DNA of 64,000 nt from Candidatus Gastranaerophilales bacterium. Lineage in GTDB: Bacteria; Cyanobacteriota; Vampirovibrionia; Gastranaerophilales; Gastranaerophilaceae. The notes under the pieces are model-generated. The model was not told where the DNA came from. It saw only the letters and a program-made list of their open reading frames with translations, and did no database searches. Made by a program: the position numbers and the translations under genes. Shown in pieces: positions 54,345 through 64,000 of the stretch. The DNA is taken from the NCBI GenBank assembly GCA_944326585.1, contig CALVEN010000002.1:1-64000 (forward strand). The letters are read 5' to 3'. Numbering within the stretch: position 1 is the first letter of the stretch; each line of letters opens with the position of its first letter.

Positions 54345-55928
54345 TTAAGCAACAGGTTGTTTTATTTTATACAAAGTAGATGTTATAAAATTAATATTAA
54401 TTTTTTTAGACAATTTAGAAATTTCCTCTGACATAATATCATTTCTTTCATCAAATTCATTTACCTTAGCATTATTTATCAAATCATCAGAAACATAATT
54501 ATCCGTTGCAACTGGGCTGAAGCCGTCGAGTCCTGCCATTGTAACTGATTTTATACCTATTTTTATAAACAAATTCAACAACATCAAAGCTACATTATCA
54601 AACATCTTTGAATCATTCAAATAAGATGAGTAATTAAGGACACGAGCCTGTGGAGGAATATCTTCAATATTGGAAGAAACAACCAACGGCGTCATATAAT
54701 TGTTCAATGTGGTAAAACGTTTCATATTAGTCACAAATACAAGATTTTCCTTAAATTGCTCCGGAATAAAGTTCAAAGAAATTATAAAAGGATTTTCCTG
54801 TTTTATAAAATTATTAATTTTCTGTAGTTCTTCTTTCAAAGATTTACCGGGTGCAAGAATAAGAATCTTCTTATTTGTAAGCAAATTTTTCATATATTCA
54901 ACAGTTTTGCTGTCATCAACAACCTTTGAAAATTTATCCAAATACAATTGTTTAATCAAATTTGCATCATAGATAGACTTTTTGTTATCAGGAATTGATT
55001 TCAAAAGATTATTAATAAATTCTACAGGTACAGTCTGTTTATCCACAAGGTATTTTGCATAATTCGGGTGACAGTGATTTGTCGCGGCTAAATAATATGG
55101 TACTGAATATCCCCAAGGAGTTTTAGCGAATATCGGATTTATTTGTTCATCTATTATTTTTAATATTGGAATTATATCATAATGTCCGTTATAATTATCG
55201 TTAATGTACTGTGTGATAAGCTCAGTACAAAGATTCCCTGCGCCACGTCCCATACCAAAAACGGTTGAATCGATAATAAGTTCTCTATTTTTGCAAACTT
55301 TCATTAAACATTGTGCATTTGAAAATGATAATTGCAAATTATTATGGGAATGGAAGCATAGAGCAATATCTTTGTTTAAATTATGATCAATTAAATAGTA
55401 TAATCTTAACAAATCGTCTTCTTTTAAGACTCCCATAGAATCTACTATTGACATTCCATAAGGCCTGATATCATTTATATCTTTAATTACATCAAGTATT
55501 TCTTCATCAGTAAATTGATCAATAAAAGTTGGATTAATAAAAAGTTTATACCCCTTTGATTTCAACTTTTTACAGTAAACCATTGCCTTATCTTTTTGGC
55601 TTTTCTTAAAAATTAATCTTATTCCTTTAATAATTGAATCTTTAACATCAGGAACTTTTTCAATAGAAAATTTACCATAAGTAATCATACCGAACAATTT
55701 TTCTTTATCAATATTAAAAGGCACAAATCTTTTAATATCTTCAAATGAATTAAATAAGGTTTTTGAAACTGTTGTTGTTTCCTCTGTTAAAAAACCTGTT
55801 TCAATATAATCAATATTCGATTTTGATAACGAAGCTAATATTTGTCTGCATTTATCAAGTCCAAAATCCCATTCGTTTATATATCCACCATCACGCAAGG
55901 TACAGTCTAAAACTTTTATATTTAACAT
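54345..55928 (-). CDS. HMGL-type aldolase with C-terminal unknown domain
   Basis: 527 residues. N-terminal TIM barrel of the HMG-CoA lyase/4-hydroxy-2-oxovalerate aldolase group: DCTLRDGGY (8-16, metal Asp and Arg), YIETGF (41-46), SIVDSMG (160-166), CFHSHNN (191-197, two metal His), VFGMGRGAGN (223-232). The domain ends near 345. Residues about 353-527 (ILILAPGKSLKEEL, FVTNMKRFTTL, VTMAGLDGFSP) recall the GT42/MptE-DUF115 fold (GxGxSL start), not proved. Such aldolases join pyruvate to an aldehyde. In a glycan locus it may make a keto-sugar acid. Overlaps the cytidylyltransferase-like gene by 7 nt. Confidence 0.8.
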   Translation of the reverse strand: MLNIKVLDCTLRDGGYINEWDFGLDKCRQILASLSKSNIDYIETGFLTEETTTVSKTLFNSFEDIKRFVPFNIDKEKLFGMITYGKFSIEKVPDVKDSIIKGIRLIFKKSQKDKAMVYCKKLKSKGYKLFINPTFIDQFTDEEILDVIKDINDIRPYGMSIVDSMGVLKEDDLLRLYYLIDHNLNKDIALCFHSHNNLQLSFSNAQCLMKVCKNRELIIDSTVFGMGRGAGNLCTELITQYINDNYNGHYDIIPILKIIDEQINPIFAKTPWGYSVPYYLAATNHCHPNYAKYLVDKQTVPVEFINNLLKSIPDNKKSIYDANLIKQLYLDKFSKVVDDSKTVEYMKNLLTNKKILILAPGKSLKEELQKINNFIKQENPFIISLNFIPEQFKENLVFVTNMKRFTTLNNYMTPLVVSSNIEDIPPQARVLNYSSYLNDSKMFDNVALMLLNLFIKIGIKSVTMAGLDGFSPVATDNYVSDDLINNAKVNEFDERNDIMSEEISKLSKKININFITSTLYKIKQPVA

Positions 55929-56602
55929 ATTCCATTCATCCTATATTTTTTATACATAAATTCAGCAAACTCAAAATCTATTTCATTATCTATATCAATA
56001 CACTCTATAGAATCTAATTCATATAGTAAAGGGTGATTCCCGACAATACTTGAATTTTTAATACCATATTCTTTAGTGAAAATATTTATTGCAAAATTTA
56101 AAGCAAATATATTAGGGAGATCCTGGCTTTTAGGCATTTTGTCAATTGAATAATTTAAAGGAATATTATCTTTCCACAAAAATTCCTTAATTAAATGTGC
56201 CGAATTTAATGTATCATATTTATTTGATTTGTTCAGAAATGTTTTTATTGCTTGATTTAAAGAAGTATCCATAAGAAGAGGATTTGTGGCATTAACATAA
56301 ACGATTATATCAGCATTTGTTGTTTCTGAAATATTCTTATATACTTCATTGATAGAAACTGTTGATGATGCAAAATAAGGATCTCGTTTAAACGTTTCCG
56401 CACCAAGAGATTTTGCAATATCTAACATCTCGTCGCTGTCTGAATTTACTACTACTCCGTCTAATTCTTTTATTCTTTGCATTTGTCTTATTTTTATTTC
56501 CAATAAACTGCTGTTTGCAAAGGGACGTATATTTTTATTTTTTACTCTTTGAGAACCAGCTCTTACAGGTATAACTGCTTTTATAATTTTTTCGTTTATC
56601 AC
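55922..56602 (-). CDS. Acylneuraminate cytidylyltransferase-like (NeuA/KdsB family) enzyme
   Basis: 226 residues, usual length. PVRAGSQRVKNKNIRPF (about 11-27) is the CTP-binding signature, with VVVNSDSDEMLDIAK, ADIIVYVNATNPLL (about 104-117) and DNEIDFEFAEF near the C terminus. It should activate a 2-keto sugar acid as CMP-sugar. The sugar could be a nonulosonic acid or other keto-acid made by the adjoining aldolase gene. Two nt from the HAD gene, in the same minus operon. Confidence 0.88.
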   Translation of the reverse strand: MINEKIIKAVIPVRAGSQRVKNKNIRPFANSSLLEIKIRQMQRIKELDGVVVNSDSDEMLDIAKSLGAETFKRDPYFASSTVSINEVYKNISETTNADIIVYVNATNPLLMDTSLNQAIKTFLNKSNKYDTLNSAHLIKEFLWKDNIPLNYSIDKMPKSQDLPNIFALNFAINIFTKEYGIKNSSIVGNHPLLYELDSIECIDIDNEIDFEFAEFMYKKYRMNGIC

Positions 56603-56603
56603 T

Positions 56604-57314
56604 TCATAACTCCTTTATTTGTTTTATTATTTCTTCATAATTATCTGATTTAATATTTGGGGTGACATACCCCCATTTGGCTTGTATACATTTTAAATTT
56701 TTTATATTTTCACACTTTCTTAAATTATCTTCGCTATCGTCTATAAATATCGCTTTCTCTACATTGCGCAATTTCATATAAGCCTTTATAAAATTAGCCT
56801 TGGTTTGATATTCTTTTAATTTTTCTTTACCTATTATTCTTTCCTCACTCAAAATGAATTTATAATCATCAAAGTGATTTTTTATCGCAAACTCATTCTT
56901 TGTAGACAAAATAATTATATCATAATCATTTTTAATGGAATTGATCATGTAAAAAAATGGATAAGGTGCTTCTAAACTTTTCCAAAATTCATAATCACGT
57001 TCTATTAAATATTTTCGTTGCTCTTGATATTTTTTATCAAACAAACCATCTCTCACTAACATACGGTTTTTTATAAGTCTATAATATTCCTGCTCAAAAA
57101 TGTCATTATCAGTGCCACTATCTATCAACTTTAGAATATAATAATAATGCCAAGAATGAGTTATTAGATAACGATATTTTTTAAATTTCAGATAATGAAT
57201 TGCATCTATTTTTTCTTTTATTGGTATGTTATAAAATGAATATCTAGCTAATAAATAGGCCTCTTTTACACTATCAAACAAAACGCCATCAAAATCTAAG
57301 AATATTGTTTTCAT
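56604..57314 (-). CDS. HAD-superfamily hydrolase
   Basis: 236 residues. Motif I FLDFDGVLFDS (about 5-15, nucleophile Asp), motif II IILSTKN (about 132-138), motif III Lys in VEKAIFIDD, motif IV IFIDDSEDN (about 191-199). Size and cap suit a sugar-phosphate phosphatase. In this operon it may dephosphorylate a sugar acid phosphate before CMP activation, as NeuD/KdsC-type steps do. Overlaps the PP-loop gene by 4 nt. Confidence 0.87.
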   Translation of the reverse strand: MKTIFLDFDGVLFDSVKEAYLLARYSFYNIPIKEKIDAIHYLKFKKYRYLITHSWHYYYILKLIDSGTDNDIFEQEYYRLIKNRMLVRDGLFDKKYQEQRKYLIERDYEFWKSLEAPYPFFYMINSIKNDYDIIILSTKNEFAIKNHFDDYKFILSEERIIGKEKLKEYQTKANFIKAYMKLRNVEKAIFIDDSEDNLRKCENIKNLKCIQAKWGYVTPNIKSDNYEEIIKQIKEL

Positions 57315-58837
57315 ACTTTTACCTCTTCTGAAAATTCTAAAGTATTCATTTTGTTATAAAAATTTTTATACACTTCTTGTTCATACTGCCTGAATGTTTT
57401 TTCTTGTTTTATCTCTTTTTTATAATTTTTCTTTTTCTTGATATTTGGCATTTCATAATGAAATACATCTTTTAGAATTTTATATACTACTGATTTAGGA
57501 TGATAAATTTCATATTTATAATCTGTATTTTGAACTGTTGAATAAATAATTTGGGGTGTACCAAACATAAATATTGAATGAAAACCATATTTTTCACAGT
57601 TTTGAACATTTACATAATTATCAGAACCTTGTATAAAACCAAATATTTTTAAATACATCATTTTAGCAAATTTATTAGAAAAATTTGTACATAATTGATT
57701 AAGAATTGATTTAATCATATTAAAATATTTTTCATTCTTGTCTTTATCAATTAATGGCATATAAAATTTTTCATCATAAAATGCAATAAAATATTCTTTA
57801 ATATTTTTAACATTTTTTAAATTACGACATTGAGGTCTAAAAATTTTTATTATCATCAAAAACAATCTGCTTAATAAACAAAATGGCTTATTTAATATTG
57901 TACGGATAAAAAATTGCCCGATATTCTTTTCTGTTGGACCAAAACCTAATATAGAATCAGCTGCTTGTCCATTTAGCAAAACTATATCCTCTCCATATTT
58001 TTCTTTCAATTCTTCAACTACAACAAAAAACAATTGAGTAATACTCCTATCCATAAACATCGTATCAATAATCTCGGTATCAATATGTTTTGTTGTATTA
58101 ATTTTAATTTCAGCAAGTTCAATTCCCAATTTGTCAGCAGAATATAGAACTTTCAATGTATCATCATAATTCATAGAATTTGTTGGGATATGTTTTGCAA
58201 AAACCGGTATAAAATCAACATTTTGTTCTTGCAACATTTTTACACAAAGAGTTGAATCTGCTCCCCCTGAAAATAATAGAAATTTTTTCTGTGGTAAATT
58301 CTTTATCAAAGAAACAGTATCTCTCATATCAGCTAAAACTTCTTCAAAATGTCTTTTTCGATTTGGTTTATTTTCTAAATCTTTAAAATATAAATTTTCT
58401 TCAATTTTGTCAGGATAAAATTTATAAATATGGGCCGGTTTAATTTTATGAATTTTTGTACAAACAGTTTCTCCACCGGTTGTATAACGATGTTTATCCC
58501 AATATTCTATTTCAAATTTATTAGGTTCACGTTCTTCTTTTGAGAACATATTAAACAAAATTAAAAAATCATTGGAAAAATAAGTTGTATCATCCTTTTG
58601 CATATAATATGTTCTATAATTTGCCATAATGTCATTTATAATTTCGATATAATCATCATAAAATTTTATAAACGTGTAATAACCCTTTATTTTATCAATC
58701 TGTGTTTTATTGAAATTTTCAACATCCATATTATAAGGAAATCCCATTACAATAGTATTTTCGTCCTCATAATATGGTTTGTGTTTGAATATAAATTTAA
58801 AAGTTTTATTGCCGATTTTAATTTCTTTATTTAACAT
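57311..58837 (-). CDS. Asparagine synthase-like PP-loop amidotransferase protein
   Basis: 508 residues. PP-loop ATP motif FLLFSGGADSTLCVKML (about 186-202) with SGGADS at 190-195 as in AsnB C-terminal domains. The N-terminal about 150 residues resemble an eroded glutaminase domain (GYYTFIKFYDD, YFSNDFLIL) but the protein starts MLNKEI with no Cys2, so glutamine hydrolysis is unlikely. It would need ammonia or an amine from elsewhere. In surface-glycan loci relatives amidate sugar acids or build amidines. Overlaps the HAD gene by 4 nt. Confidence 0.8.
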   Translation of the reverse strand: MLNKEIKIGNKTFKFIFKHKPYYEDENTIVMGFPYNMDVENFNKTQIDKIKGYYTFIKFYDDYIEIINDIMANYRTYYMQKDDTTYFSNDFLILFNMFSKEEREPNKFEIEYWDKHRYTTGGETVCTKIHKIKPAHIYKFYPDKIEENLYFKDLENKPNRKRHFEEVLADMRDTVSLIKNLPQKKFLLFSGGADSTLCVKMLQEQNVDFIPVFAKHIPTNSMNYDDTLKVLYSADKLGIELAEIKINTTKHIDTEIIDTMFMDRSITQLFFVVVEELKEKYGEDIVLLNGQAADSILGFGPTEKNIGQFFIRTILNKPFCLLSRLFLMIIKIFRPQCRNLKNVKNIKEYFIAFYDEKFYMPLIDKDKNEKYFNMIKSILNQLCTNFSNKFAKMMYLKIFGFIQGSDNYVNVQNCEKYGFHSIFMFGTPQIIYSTVQNTDYKYEIYHPKSVVYKILKDVFHYEMPNIKKKKNYKKEIKQEKTFRQYEQEVYKNFYNKMNTLEFSEEVKV

Positions 58838-60088
58838 TTAATTCTCCTTATAAATCCATAATTTATGTTTATACACTCCGTATGCTCTTATTGAAAGCAT
58901 TATTACATAAGGTAAAATTGTCAGATATGCAAGAGTCATCATATCCAATACTTTCATAAAATATAATATACAGAGCATAATACCATGAATCAATGCAGCT
59001 ATAGGAAGTGATATATTAACAATTTTTGAATATCCCATTGCACCTAAAAGCGGATAACCAATCAACCCTGAAACAGATGAAAACAAAACTGTTATACAGA
59101 ATATTCTTAATACTTTATATGCTTCTAACATTTCAATACCATAAAAAATAGCTATAATCTCTTTTGCAAAAATAAATACAAAACCAGATATTAAGAACAT
59201 TGCAATAACCGTAGGATAAAAAATTTTTTTATATAAATTTACATTTTTATTTTTAGAAATTTGAGGATAAATAGCTGTCGCTATCGGAGATGTAAGCATA
59301 TGAATTGCATTAAAAATTTTTTCAGCCGCTACATAATATCCGACCAAAATAGGAGGCGCAACAACTCCCAAAACAAAAGCATTTGTATTTGTATAAATGG
59401 TATTGGCAATATTGGCAGAAAAATATTCAAAACTATATTTGAATTCATGCAAAATACTACTCCATTTAGGAATTGTCAATTTTAGACCAAAACGTCTATT
59501 TGCAATAATAATACTTAAAATTCCAGCAATCACAAAACCTAATGAATTTAGAACTGCGACATATAAATAGTCGTCAGGTGATTTTATGAAAATAAATATT
59601 AGGATTAAAAATACACTTTGCGAAACAATTTTAAGAAAAGTTACATATTTCATGTGTTCAATGCCTTGAAAATACCAAATTGGATAGATTGCATTACCAA
59701 TGACCATAAAAAAAGTTAAAAAGAATAATAGCCATTCATTATTGAATTTTGGCACAAATAAAACCAATAAAAATAAAACAATAAAACATAAAATTATCAA
59801 TATAAATTTAACACCCATAACCGAATTAAAAACTTCAGAAATTTTTTCTTTATCATCTTTTGCTATAGCAATTTCTCTTGAAGCCGACCAATTGAATCCA
59901 TATTCTGTTATCAGCATAAAATATTGAATACAGGCTTGTGCCCAAAAAACAAGCCCAAACTTTTCAACTCCCAAAACTCTTGATAAGTAAGGAAGCGAAA
60001 CTAGTGGTATAACATAAGTAATAACTTGTGTTAATCCTATTGCTATTACATTTTCAAAAAGCTTTTTTTTATTTGATTTTGCAGACAT
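58838..60088 (-). CDS. wzx: Wzx-type polysaccharide flippase
   Basis: 416 residues with about 12 TM helices, MOP superfamily (RfbX/Wzx). Start FENVIAIGLTQVITYVIPLVSLPYLSRVLGVEKFG is the usual N-terminal signature, with WYFQGIEHMKYV and VVAPPILVGYYVAAEKI later. It moves the undecaprenyl-linked repeat unit to the periplasm. Overlaps the upstream acyltransferase gene by 20 nt. Third core element with Wzy-like and Wzz proteins. Confidence 0.93.
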   Translation of the reverse strand: MSAKSNKKKLFENVIAIGLTQVITYVIPLVSLPYLSRVLGVEKFGLVFWAQACIQYFMLITEYGFNWSASREIAIAKDDKEKISEVFNSVMGVKFILIILCFIVLFLLVLFVPKFNNEWLLFFLTFFMVIGNAIYPIWYFQGIEHMKYVTFLKIVSQSVFLILIFIFIKSPDDYLYVAVLNSLGFVIAGILSIIIANRRFGLKLTIPKWSSILHEFKYSFEYFSANIANTIYTNTNAFVLGVVAPPILVGYYVAAEKIFNAIHMLTSPIATAIYPQISKNKNVNLYKKIFYPTVIAMFLISGFVFIFAKEIIAIFYGIEMLEAYKVLRIFCITVLFSSVSGLIGYPLLGAMGYSKIVNISLPIAALIHGIMLCILYFMKVLDMMTLAYLTILPYVIMLSIRAYGVYKHKLWIYKEN

Positions 60089-61067
60089 TTCTAAAACCTT
60101 TGATTAATTTTGTTATATATATTTTTATGTAATAAAACAGATAGTAATATAAAATCCCAATCGATAATGAAAGGAATAAATGTTCATAAAATAATAACTT
60201 TTCTTTCAAGAACATTACAACTAAAGATTCTATTAAAAAAATTTCAAGACTTCCCCCCCCAATAAAGTTTAATATTTTAACCAAATATTTCCCAATAGTC
60301 ATCTTGTTTATTAGATTTACAGTATTTACTAATAAAAATATAAGCCCAGGAATAAATAAAAGCATACTATAATACATTAAACCATATTTAAAACGTATTT
60401 TATAAAAAATAGTATAAGTGATTATTAAACATATAAAACCTATGGCAGATAAAAATATAGTAAACAAAAATGATTTTTTATTCAACTGAACTTGTTTTTT
60501 GAAATACTGACCGACACAAAGACCAATAAAAAATATTGGGACTCTAGCTATCCCTTGTATTCTTCCATCTCCCCAAAAAGGTATTGATAATAGCAGAATA
60601 AATAATAAAAATAAAATTTTATTGCTAATACTATGCAAATGTTTATTTATAATATCCACTAAAATCGGAGATAAAGTATAGCACAAAAAAGCATATGATA
60701 AATAACCAAAAGCTCTATTATCTAACCAAAAATTTTCAAGAGTAAAAATTCCGACAATTTGATGAAATATAGTTAACTTTATAATAAAAATATAAATTAT
60801 AAATATCGGAATTGCAGGCAGAAAACGTTTTATGCGTCTTAAATAAAAATTACCTAAATCATTATCCTTATATAAAGAACAATAAATCCCTAACCCTGAT
60901 AAAAATAAAAATATTTCAACTCCCCCATATCCTAATCCACAAAAAGGAAATCTTATAATTTGTGGAATATTAATAGAGATATGTGAATGCCCAAATATTA
61001 TCCATATAATAGCAATACCCATTAAAGAGTTTCTATATTTACTTATATAATTTAATGTATTTTCCAT
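60069..61067 (-). CDS. Acyltransferase family 3 (O-acetyltransferase-like), G8 tract inside
   Basis: 332 residues, about 10 TM helices. MGIAIIWIIFGHSHISI with the conserved His (about 27) and FLFLSGLGIYCSLYKDN, FYLRRIKRFLPAIPIF are OafA/Acyl_transf_3 signatures. It adds O-acyl groups to glycans. A run of eight G on the coding strand (plus-strand C8, 60253-60260) encodes Gly-Gly-Gly near residue 270 (FIGGGSLEIF). Slippage there would shift frame and remove the last about 60 residues, so ON/OFF switching is possible. Overlaps neighbouring genes by 16-20 nt. Confidence 0.88.
   Translation of the reverse strand: MENTLNYISKYRNSLMGIAIIWIIFGHSHISINIPQIIRFPFCGLGYGGVEIFLFLSGLGIYCSLYKDNDLGNFYLRRIKRFLPAIPIFIIYIFIIKLTIFHQIVGIFTLENFWLDNRAFGYLSYAFLCYTLSPILVDIINKHLHSISNKILFLLFILLLSIPFWGDGRIQGIARVPIFFIGLCVGQYFKKQVQLNKKSFLFTIFLSAIGFICLIITYTIFYKIRFKYGLMYYSMLLFIPGLIFLLVNTVNLINKMTIGKYLVKILNFIGGGSLEIFLIESLVVMFLKEKLLFYEHLFLSLSIGILYYYLFYYIKIYITKLIKGFRNVCKIK
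60253..60260 (-). repeat. G8 homopolymer in acyltransferase gene (phase-variation candidate)
   Basis: Eight consecutive C on the plus strand (G on the coding strand) inside a gene of otherwise very AT-rich DNA. The reading frame is intact with 8. Confidence 0.75.
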
Positions 61068-62236
61068 TTTTCTCCTATTCTTTTGTTTTCTGATAATAGT
61101 GGTTTTGTTTTAAGAAATGTTTTATAATATTGGTTTAATGTTTCTTTTAATTCTTGCTTTGAAGTATTGCTAATATCAAAATTTAATAAAATAGAATAAT
61201 CTGGAGAATATTCTTTAACGATATGTTTAACAATATCTAATTTTCCACCTTTTTCATCAGTATGATTAATAGCTTTTTCGGTAACATGGCTAAAACAAGG
61301 TATTGAACTGTAATGGGCCAAAGTTAAAGAACTTGTAGACGATATTGATACTATCGCAACTACATCAAATTCATATAATTCTATTGGATATTTAGAATCG
61401 ATAAATTTTACATTGGGATTTCTATCAAATCCATAAAATTCACTATCTCTAGGATGTGGTTTATATAAAATTTTATATCCTTTATCTACTAGATCCTGAA
61501 TAACTTTTTTCTGAACTTTACTAAATTCATCTTTATTTAGTCCTGAAACTTCCCAATATATGCTACAGTACAAAATATATTTCTCATTAGTATCATAATT
61601 TATATTAATCGGATATTTTTTTGATAATATTTCACGAATTTTATTAAATTCCTGCATACTGATTTCATTAAAATTATATTTTTGAATATTGTTGATACCA
61701 TAAAAATCAAGTTTTCCCAAATATTTATGCATTTTTATTTCTTTTAAATTTTTGATATTTTCAATACCGTAATTGATTAAAGAGGCTGGCCCCTCATCAA
61801 TGAGAGTAATTTTGGCATTTGTATATAATTTTAAAACAGTTTTGAGATGAGCATTGTGATTTAACAAATACACTTCATCAACTTTAAAAAAATTGTTTAA
61901 AACAGCAATTATTCCAGAATTAACTTGATAACCAATATATATTTTTTTAAAGTTGTGTAAAGATGCAATTTCCATCTGATTTTCAATAAAATCTTTTCTG
62001 CCTTTCCCAGTATCAATAAAGAGATAATCTTCGTATTTATCAAAATTACCTATTTCATTTATAATAGACAGAATATTAACCAAAGATATATTTCCACTAG
62101 TTGAGAAAAATCTTATTATTTTTTTCTTTTTAACAAATTTATCCCAAATTTTATATTCTAACCTAATAATGGGTGATAGAATATAGAATAAAAGCCACTT
62201 TGTTATTCTTATAATTTTATAATCATTGATATTCAT
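61052..62236 (-). CDS. Polysialyltransferase-like glycosyltransferase
   Basis: 394 residues. Motifs of bacterial polysialyltransferases (GT38/GT52-like): LIDEGPASL with D-E-G at 147-149, LYKPHPRDSEF with HP at 261-262 (KPHPRD 259-264), and SISSTSSL (297-304). These are the D/E-D/E-G, HP and S-S motifs that bind CMP-sialic acid. The substrate-binding context, with the CMP-sugar synthetase 5 kb away, fits transfer of a CMP-activated acid to a lipid-linked glycan. Starts with a hydrophobic amphipathic stretch (WLLFYILSPII), so membrane-associated. Overlaps the acyltransferase gene by 16 nt. Confidence 0.78.
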   Translation of the reverse strand: MNINDYKIIRITKWLLFYILSPIIRLEYKIWDKFVKKKKIIRFFSTSGNISLVNILSIINEIGNFDKYEDYLFIDTGKGRKDFIENQMEIASLHNFKKIYIGYQVNSGIIAVLNNFFKVDEVYLLNHNAHLKTVLKLYTNAKITLIDEGPASLINYGIENIKNLKEIKMHKYLGKLDFYGINNIQKYNFNEISMQEFNKIREILSKKYPININYDTNEKYILYCSIYWEVSGLNKDEFSKVQKKVIQDLVDKGYKILYKPHPRDSEFYGFDRNPNVKFIDSKYPIELYEFDVVAIVSISSTSSLTLAHYSSIPCFSHVTEKAINHTDEKGGKLDIVKHIVKEYSPDYSILLNFDISNTSKQELKETLNQYYKTFLKTKPLLSENKRIGEKWKIH

Positions 62237-62239
62237 TAT

Positions 62240-63664
62240 TTAACCCTCTTTTGTAACTAAATAAAGACTTTTTTGAAATTGTTTATAATACATAATACAG
62301 GGGATCGTCATTCCATATAAAAACCAAAAGTAAATAAAATTTGAACGTATATCATAAATAGAAAGACAAATAATTGTAATATATGTTTGTCTTAATCCTA
62401 TAATAAATTGTTTAATCATTGTATCAGGAATTTTATTTTTTATAGCATTTAATTTTATGATGCTAAGTATAAGAAACGTATAAAATAATATTATTCCAAC
62501 ACTTCCTGTATCAGAAAGGGCATTCCAAAAAATAGAACCACTTAACGTAATAAATTTATTATTATTTGATATGTTAAACAGTTGTTTTCGCATTCCAGTA
62601 GGTAAAATATTATTTGTAGATTCTAGAACTTTATAGACCTGATATTCTGTATTTTTATAACCAACCCCAGTTATAGGATGTTGTAAAAAAATCTTAAATC
62701 TAGCTTTGTATCCAAGCACTCGAGTGGCAAGAGATTCATCTATAAATACAATATTTATACCTAAATTATTTGTAAAGTTGATAATTCGAGTTAAAGCTCC
62801 CCGAGGATTATAACGAAGATGAATCACACCTGTATTTATTACTATATTTGCACAAATAACAAGCATTAATATAATAATAAGCATAGTTTTAAAATATTTT
62901 ATAATTATTTTATAAAAATAAATTAAGTTTATTATTATAAATATTATTAACCATATTGGTGATTGCACAAGTATAAGAGTAACAATATATAATGGAATAA
63001 AAGATTTTTTAAAAAAATAGTTAATATATTTATTATAAAATACTTTGAATTTAGATAAAACGATATTATAAACGATTGGAATATTAATACAGATAAACCC
63101 ACCCATATACCCAGGTTCTTCAAAAACACTTAAGACTCTTGTTGTACTTATAAAATCACGTCTATTTACAATAATATTTTGTATTGGTTCTAATATTGGA
63201 ACATTAATTTTATTAAACAAAAATACCAATATACCATATAAACAAATTAAATATATACTAATAAGTAAATATCGTATTAAATTTTTTAAAGAAATAAAAT
63301 GTGGTACTAACAAAGTAGGATAAATATACCAACTAATATTGTTATAAAAGAAAAGAGCAATAGCAGCATATAAAAAAATGGGAAATTTATAAATACCCAT
63401 AAATACCAAAAAGATACCACTGACAAATACCCAAGCTATATATAGCCACAATACTTTATAATATAGTTCCTTAAAAGTGAAAAATCTGATAAAGAATTTG
63501 GGATTAATTAGAATTAATAAAAAAAATGAAAGACCAATTATAATATCATAAAAAGGGATATTTGTTCCTGGAACATAAAAGCTTTGCAAAAATAAAAAGA
63601 ACAATGGTAAAAAAATTATGAATATTACTATTTTTTTAGGAATCATAGTTAATAAATTATTCAT
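62240..63664 (-). CDS. wzy: Wzy-type O-antigen/capsule polymerase
   Basis: 474 residues with about 12 TM helices, a large periplasmic loop (about 285-385) and another short one. Wzy proteins vary strongly in sequence; support is the topology, GVGYKNTEYQVYKVL (as in O-antigen polymerase loops GxGxxN), and location between glycosyltransferases and the flippase gene. It joins repeat units in the periplasm. Four nt after the polysialyltransferase-like gene in reading order upstream, overlapping the glycosyltransferase gene by 8 nt. Confidence 0.82.
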   Translation of the reverse strand: MNNLLTMIPKKIVIFIIFLPLFFLFLQSFYVPGTNIPFYDIIIGLSFFLLILINPKFFIRFFTFKELYYKVLWLYIAWVFVSGIFLVFMGIYKFPIFLYAAIALFFYNNISWYIYPTLLVPHFISLKNLIRYLLISIYLICLYGILVFLFNKINVPILEPIQNIIVNRRDFISTTRVLSVFEEPGYMGGFICINIPIVYNIVLSKFKVFYNKYINYFFKKSFIPLYIVTLILVQSPIWLIIFIIINLIYFYKIIIKYFKTMLIIILMLVICANIVINTGVIHLRYNPRGALTRIINFTNNLGINIVFIDESLATRVLGYKARFKIFLQHPITGVGYKNTEYQVYKVLESTNNILPTGMRKQLFNISNNNKFITLSGSIFWNALSDTGSVGIILFYTFLILSIIKLNAIKNKIPDTMIKQFIIGLRQTYITIICLSIYDIRSNFIYFWFLYGMTIPCIMYYKQFQKSLYLVTKEG

Positions 63665-64000
63665 TTATCACCTCTTGAATAATTTTATCCCACTCATCAC
63701 CAACTTTTTCCCAAGAAAAATTATTTAGAATAAATTCTCTTGATTTTGTTGCAACATCATTTCGCAAACTATCATCTTTCATTATATCTATAACCTTTTT
63801 AGCAAAATCTTTTTCTGATATTGCAACTTTTAAAATATTTTCATCAGCCCCTATACCTTCTGCTCCCTCAGGAGTTGTTACAACTGGAATCCCCATAGAC
63901 ATAGCTTCTAAAATTTTATTTTGGATTCCTCCTGCAATTTTTACAGGACAAACTGATACTTTGCAGTCTTTCATATATTCTCTTACATCATCTACTCGTC
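63657..64000 (-). CDS. Glycosyltransferase (GT4-type), 3' part only
   Basis: Open to the window edge; at least 114 residues of the C-terminal Rossmann half. Seen: VDDVREYMKDC, VCPVKIAGGIQNKILEAMSMGIPVVTTPEGAEGI (in pieces), the GT-B nucleotide-sugar site (the Glu of LEAMSMG and GxP). The frame continues past 63974 into codons reading VDDVREY, so the methionine there is internal. Part of the minus-strand polysaccharide operon. Sugar donor unknown. Confidence 0.85.
   Translation of the reverse strand, partial: RVDDVREYMKDCKVSVCPVKIAGGIQNKILEAMSMGIPVVTTPEGAEGIGADENILKVAISEKDFAKKVIDIMKDDSLRNDVATKSREFILNNFSWEKVGDEWDKIIQEVINE

Follow-up and report, generated by a model that had tools for sequence, protein, structure and literature searches.

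In a capsule locus of a Candidatus Gastranaerophilales bacterium, a cassette of a two-domain aldolase, a HAD-family hydrolase, and a NeuA/PseF-like cytidylyltransferase probably makes a cytidine monophosphate (CMP)-activated 3-deoxy-2-ulosonic acid for the capsule without a phosphoenolpyruvate (PEP) condensation. The locus lies on the minus strand of contig CALVEN010000002.1, within the 64,000-nucleotide stretch that was analyzed (the window). To our knowledge, the established bacterial routes to CMP-activated ulosonic acids all begin with a PEP-dependent synthase of the NeuB/KdsA type. The aldolase would take the position of NeuB or KdsA, and the new element would be a different first enzyme in a CMP-ulosonate pathway of otherwise known type. 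Acidic surface sugars of this class are important for host recognition and flagellar glycosylation and because phages use them as receptors; genome surveys predict sialic-acid-like sugars from NeuB/KdsA-type genes. If the cassette works as proposed, such surveys overlook a route in many gut bacteria, Gram-positives included, and the presence of KdsB-like genes in KdsA-free genomes would be explained. The genes and domain assigned to the route are as follows.

55928-54345, minus strand: two-domain HMGL-type aldolase, 527 aa (PF00682)
54348..54923, minus strand: C-terminal domain of the aldolase, residues 336-527 (GT42/GT29/Maf/MptE fold)
56602-55922, minus strand: NeuA/PseF-like cytidylyltransferase, 226 aa (PF02348); proposed CMP-ulosonate synthetase
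57314-56604, minus strand: HAD-family hydrolase, 236 aa (weak Pfam/NCBIfam HAD matches plus motifs); proposed ulosonate-phosphate phosphatase
62236-61052, minus strand: polysialyltransferase (polyST)-like glycosyltransferase (GT) (PF07388 A-2_8-polyST, 41.6 bits, cut-off 23.3); proposed transferase of the CMP-activated acid

In the proposed route, the metal-dependent, DmpG-like barrel of the aldolase would add a pyruvate enolate to an aldehyde, likeliest a small aldose phosphate of central metabolism. A common metabolite is favored because no dedicated aldehyde-supplying gene recurs among the neighbor clusters within 5 kb of the aldolase; a class II aldolase gene was seen near it in one locus only (L055). 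The HAD hydrolase, replaced by an IMPase-family gene in one relative, would then strip the phosphate. CMP would be joined to the keto acid by the NeuA/PseF-like enzyme, whose counterpart in many relatives is KdsB-like, and the polyST-like GT would transfer the acid, a step for which relatives could use a GT2 or Maf protein. As a first guess, held with low confidence, the product is a C6 acid of the 2-keto-3-deoxygluconate (KDG) type derived from glyceraldehyde 3-phosphate. In 7 loci a KDG-kinase-like PfkB gene lies no more than 3 kb from the aldolase, and the three such genes that were tested score about 545 to 606 bits against the kinase half of a 2-keto-3-deoxy-6-phosphogluconate (KDPG)-aldolase/kinase fusion model.

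Conserved gene linkage and partner swapping

Scanning one genome per species with the aldolase motifs alone returned 80 loci, 79 of them with the two-domain form. These come from Gastranaerophilales, Bacteroidales, many Firmicutes, Treponema, Fusobacterium, Akkermansia, Succinivibrionaceae, and two Thermoplasmata metagenome-assembled genomes (MAGs). Neighbors of the 79 two-domain loci were counted by six-frame search within 3 kb. The pairing of an aldolase with a NeuA-like enzyme, pointed out in a first-pass annotation of the window, recurs widely: a KdsB-like or NeuA/PseF-like cytidylyltransferase lies on the same strand in 55 of the 79 loci, and 30 of these 55 also carry a HAD or IMPase-family phosphatase. 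NeuB was found within this distance in none of the 79. The order HAD, cytidylyltransferase, aldolase is repeated in L064, L065, L068, and L045. At the level of individual genes, near neighbors are enriched over distant ones both for cytidylyltransferases (56/344 versus 4/533) and for HAD proteins (35/344 versus 1/533), in a count that misses some genes owing to the choice of wrong-strand open reading frames (ORFs) in L099 and L101. Because kinship among the loci makes them non-independent, p-values are indicative only; the spread across phyla is the stronger argument for linkage.

Among relatives of the window genome, the two-domain aldolase stands beside a CTP_transf_3 gene in 9 of 9 genomes, none of which has a strong NeuB match, as against 1 of 27 for single-domain aldolases. 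Of the 55 cytidylyltransferase-type loci, 19 have a polyST-like GT at a distance of up to 5 kb, whereas the 16 loci that carry a thiamine pyrophosphate (TPP) enzyme have none in that range. Its confinement to the cytidylyltransferase subclass among the loci compared matches the transferase role first suggested for the polyST-like protein of the window.

The cytidylyltransferase partners are exchanged within the family. KdsB-like and NeuA/PseF-like labels are interleaved on an aldolase tree built by a quick method, and its well-supported branches force at least 10 label changes for each type. Both types CMP-activate 3-deoxy-2-keto sugar acids, and it is mainly because the swapped partners share this activity that we name the product class a 3-deoxy-2-ulosonic acid. 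The window enzyme matches PF02348 (CTP_transf_3) at 85.3 bits (cut-off 22.6, E 7e-24) and the PseF model at 87.4 bits, under the equivalog cut-off of 205.7.

Two loci illustrate other arrangements. In Clostridium sp. LS (L126 9992-14171), the aldolase and a KdsB-like gene are flanked by flagellar genes on one side and a Maf-type protein on the other, which suggests that the cassette product may be used in flagellin glycosylation. In L046 (G017:C5, 6997-14763), two aldolases, five KdsB-like or NeuA-like cytidylyltransferases, and a HAD gene are packed together, perhaps as two parallel cassettes.

The aldolase barrel

Residues 1-335 of the aldolase form a DmpG-like DRE-TIM/HMGL barrel. PF00682 (HMGL-like) matches at 59.2 bits (cut-off 29, E 5.3e-16), and the nearest NCBIfam models are those of 4-hydroxy-2-oxovalerate aldolases, with scores far under their cut-offs (57.9 bits for TIGR03217, equivalog cut-off 286). 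The AlphaFold2 model of the aldolase has a predicted local distance difference test (pLDDT) score of 92, and a Foldseek search with it returns 3dxi first, followed by the DmpG group (1nvm and 4lrs). The former is BVU_2661, a putative aldolase of Bacteroides vulgatus and the closest solved relative (E 1e-49), whose entry title describes an N-terminal domain. It is known by its structure, and the open-access literature searched gave no function for it.

Across 52 family members, R12, D13, H193, and H195 are invariant and correspond, by alignment with 1nvm, to metal-site residues of DmpG; W272, Y274, H287, and Y290 are invariant as well. The barrel fold and the RDG and HxH motifs are held in common with the DmpG group (1nvm, 4lrs, 4jn6), whereas the window aldolase is set apart by Tyr16, a sialyltransferase-like C-terminal domain, and its capsule-locus context. 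Tyr16 occupies the position of the DmpG catalytic His (RDG-x-H motif) in 50 of the 52 members, with Phe in the other 2. A canonical DmpG identity was rejected on the basis of this replacement and of the score below the equivalog cut-off.

The replaced His and the invariant W272, H287, and Y290 would also suit a barrel that makes the CMP-activated acid with a nucleophile other than pyruvate, either a different 2-keto acid or an acyl-CoA in a Claisen reaction (cf. isopropylmalate synthase), and the DRE-TIM superfamily includes both chemistries. We regard this as improbable, given that the 4-hydroxy-2-oxovalerate aldolase models score best for the window protein (63 bits, versus 33 for isopropylmalate synthase) and that aldolase structures rank first in Foldseek.

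Single-domain relatives of the barrel were also encountered. The window genome itself encodes, outside the window, a paralogue of 335 aa that is 49% identical (C2:179681-180655; L010 1486-2493); its neighbor is a response regulator, and the 3.7 kb seen contain no sugar genes. On plasmid NZ_CP090010.1 of Desulfobaculum bizertense (L063), an aldolase-barrel protein of about 337 aa belongs to a surface-sugar cluster, where it comes after RfbH and a split transketolase. Viral contigs yielded no relative of the aldolase.

NeuB and KdsA in the host genomes

The first-pass annotation had observed that no neuB is visible in the window and had proposed that the aldolase replaces it. The absence extends to the next 16 kb beyond position 64,000, where no neuB/kdsA-like gene was found, and genome-wide the sole PF03102 match is a 32.8-bit hit on a 349-aa ORF resembling 3-deoxy-D-arabino-heptulosonate 7-phosphate (DAHP) synthase. 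KdsA is above its cut-off on another contig (C1:410502) and absent from the capsule locus; together with a second, KdsB-like CTP_transf_3 gene (213 bits), it presumably serves the 3-deoxy-D-manno-octulosonic acid (Kdo) of lipopolysaccharide in a housekeeping role.

We extended the search to the 49 genomes in which the aldolase locus contains a cytidylyltransferase, counting NeuB matches of at least 137 bits as strong. A strong NeuB was present in 12 and KdsA above cut-off in 18; one or both were found in 25 genomes and neither in the remaining 24. The latter include Gram-positive isolates, and among the isolates with neither synthase are Bacillus sp. EAC, Proteocatella sphenisci, Niameybacter massiliensis, Paenibacillus sp. 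HB172176, and Sporolactobacillus spathodeae; most of the remaining genomes of this set are MAGs, in which absence is weaker evidence. The partner cytidylyltransferase of Proteocatella exceeds the KdsB equivalog cut-off (160.7 versus 155.2). The proposed replacement of NeuB gains from this distribution, from the linkage across phyla, and from the consistent absence of NeuB next to the aldolase, while the addition of pyruvate and the choice of aldehyde are what we infer.

These data also bear on an alternative in which the substrate of the cytidylyltransferase is Kdo or some other acid from a PEP-dependent synthase encoded elsewhere in the genome, and the aldolase belongs to a separate branch, for example in recycling or breakdown. 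Aldol reactions are reversible, a strong match to NeuB or KdsA occurs in 25 of the 49 genomes, and the window genome has, besides its KdsA, a CTP_transf_3 gene stronger than the one in the cassette. Set against this, 24 of the 49 genomes have neither synthase, and the aldolase adjoins a cytidylyltransferase across phyla while NeuB is never adjacent. We consider such a separate branch unlikely.

Several points nevertheless weigh against CMP-ulosonate synthesis by the cassette. With KdsA and a second, KdsB-like gene, the window genome can supply Kdo to the NeuA-like enzyme. The catalytic His of DmpG is a Tyr in the window aldolase, and no phosphatase was detected in 25 of the 55 cassettes. In about 15 of the 79 loci the partner of the aldolase is a TPP enzyme, with no cytidylyltransferase of the cassette type adjacent, and the aldolase product is thus not always CMP-activated. 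The genomes are mostly MAGs, related loci are not independent samples, and the support as a whole is computational.

Relative to the CMP-Kdo pathway (KdsD-KdsA-KdsC-KdsB), the cassette has keto-acid synthesis, a HAD phosphatase, and CMP activation in common, and its partner is often KdsB-like; it differs in having an aldolase for the PEP-dependent KdsA and a HAD of another type, and many hosts lack KdsA. With the nonulosonic acid pathways (NeuB/LegI/PseI plus NeuA/LegF/PseF) it shares NeuA/PseF-like activation and polyST-like or Maf-like transferases, whereas neither the cassette locus nor the window genome has a NeuB-type synthase. We found no description of an aldolase-cytidylyltransferase cassette in the open-access literature; other journals may hold prior work. 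The Campylobacter jejuni capsule locus CJ016 lists a putative 4-hydroxy-2-ketovalerate aldolase with no function given (PMC9858101), a likeness by annotation alone.

The C-terminal domain

Modeled alone with AlphaFold2, residues 336-527 reach a pLDDT of 94.4. The initial guess of a GT42/MptE-like domain is borne out at the level of fold by VIA-align, which gives Z scores of 11.0 for MptE (8sd5), 10.4 for CstII (1ro8), 10.4 for Maf (5mu5), 10.3 for SteA, 9.7 for CstI, and 9.5 for GT29, with mammalian sialyltransferases among the best structural neighbors. The assignment is based on VIA-align, Foldseek being weak here (best E 1.8e-3, for SteA). By profile, PF01973 (MptE-like) matches the window domain at 17.9 bits, below the gathering score of 34.6; with E values of 1 or less allowed, it matches 19 of the 52 members, the best at 1.3e-6. 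S419, N420, G466, D468, G469, and T516 are invariant in the 52 sequences, and N386 (50/52) and Y478 (49/52) nearly so. In no alignment column does His occur in as many as 8 of the 52.

The fold is therefore the one in common with GT42 sialyltransferases, Maf, and MptE (Z 8 to 11), whereas the domain is shorter, has no conserved His, and is fused to an aldolase. An active GT42 enzyme was disfavored for want of a conserved catalytic His. The domain is probably a cytidine-nucleotide binder that serves as a feedback sensor or a docking site, nucleotide binding being more probable than an active transferase. A cytidine-linked sugar recurs as the likely end product of these loci, which would fit a cytidine-sensing domain.

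The resemblance in fold to GT42, GT29, and Maf could instead be taken to mean that the domain is an active sialyltransferase-like GT and that one protein both makes and transfers the acid. The missing His speaks against this, as do the length (192 residues in the alignment, versus 248 for the CstII chain) and the presence of the domain in TPP-type loci as well; it is the least probable of the alternatives weighed here. In one locus (L048; G006:C7:35276-36400), similarity to the aldolase runs into stop codons past the barrel, which suggests a degraded C-terminal domain; no cytidylyltransferase was seen nearby.

Loci with other partner enzymes

Sixteen of the 79 loci (L113, L120, L121, L123, L129, L131, L136, L140, and others) carry a gene for an acetolactate-synthase-like TPP enzyme no farther than 3 kb from the aldolase, and 10 of these 16 have the CDP-3,6-dideoxy-sugar genes RfbF, RfbG, or RfbH. 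In such loci, the keto acid used as donor for a branched sugar may come from the aldolase, and these loci are possibly a route to branched sugars with side chains longer than that of yersiniose. Generalized to the whole family, the aldolase would give a hydroxylated 2-keto acid to a TPP enzyme, and its proximity to cytidylyltransferases would reflect the clustering of surface-sugar genes. We judge this very improbable: 55 loci have a cytidylyltransferase, just one of which also has a TPP enzyme, and no TPP enzyme gene was seen in the window operon.

A TagD-like nucleotidyltransferase, assigned below cut-off to the glycerol-3-phosphate cytidylyltransferase family, lies at most 3 kb from the two-domain aldolase in L111 (8485-8946) and L128 (9513-9965); no phosphatase was detected in either locus. 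Beyond CMP-ulosonate synthesis by the window cassette, we tentatively suggest that the widespread two-domain aldolase heads an unrecognized branch of surface-sugar synthesis, in which the keto acid is either CMP-activated by KdsB-like, NeuA/PseF-like, or perhaps TagD-like enzymes or routed to a TPP enzyme that would lead to CDP-linked branched sugars, and in which the C-terminal domain senses the cytidine-linked product. If this broader proposal is true, ulosonic-acid glycans would be made in Gram-positives, and perhaps in some archaea, without NeuB or KdsA.

The capsule locus

The window opens a contig of 267,897 bases, part of a genome of 1.70 Mb that is 99.7% complete. Positions 54345-62236 hold seven genes, all on the minus strand, with ends that overlap or almost touch; the cytidylyltransferase and aldolase genes share a 7-base overlap. 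In the direction of transcription the order is Wzy-like, polyST-like GT, acyltransferase, Wzx, AsnB-like, HAD, cytidylyltransferase, and aldolase, followed by Wzz. The genes in addition to those listed above are as follows.

58837-57311, minus strand: AsnB-like PP-loop protein, 508 aa (PF00733 Asn_synthase, 27.9 bits, cut-off 21)
60088-58838, minus strand: Wzx flippase (PF01943 Polysacc_synt, 192.5 bits, cut-off 28.2)
61067-60069, minus strand: Acyltransferase_3 family protein (PF01757 Acyl_transf_3, 66.4 bits, cut-off 31)
62240..63664, minus strand: Wzy-like polymerase (PF04932, 28.2 bits, slightly below the cut-off of 31.7)
54285-52924, minus strand: Wzz-like chain-length protein (PF02706, 35.6 bits, cut-off 25.5)

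The seven genes agree with the first-pass annotation in position, strand, Pfam matches, and motifs. The GT carries IDEGP, KPHP, and SISSTSS; the HAD protein is sub-threshold in Pfam (18 bits, cut-off 26.4) and has the motifs FLDFDG and FIDDS; and the AsnB-like protein begins MLNKEIK, lacking Cys2, and retains the PP-loop FSGGADS. The same annotation had made the AsnB-like protein a pathway step that adds an amide or amidine. That role within the cassette was rejected, as no AsnB-like or PP-loop homologue was found near any relative of the aldolase; the gene belongs to the operon and stands outside the conserved cassette. Upstream, beyond 64 kb, the operon continues with a GT and HddA-, GmhA-, HddC-GmhB-, and WbaP-like genes, named from sequence reading, which would provide a GDP-heptose route and an initiating transferase.

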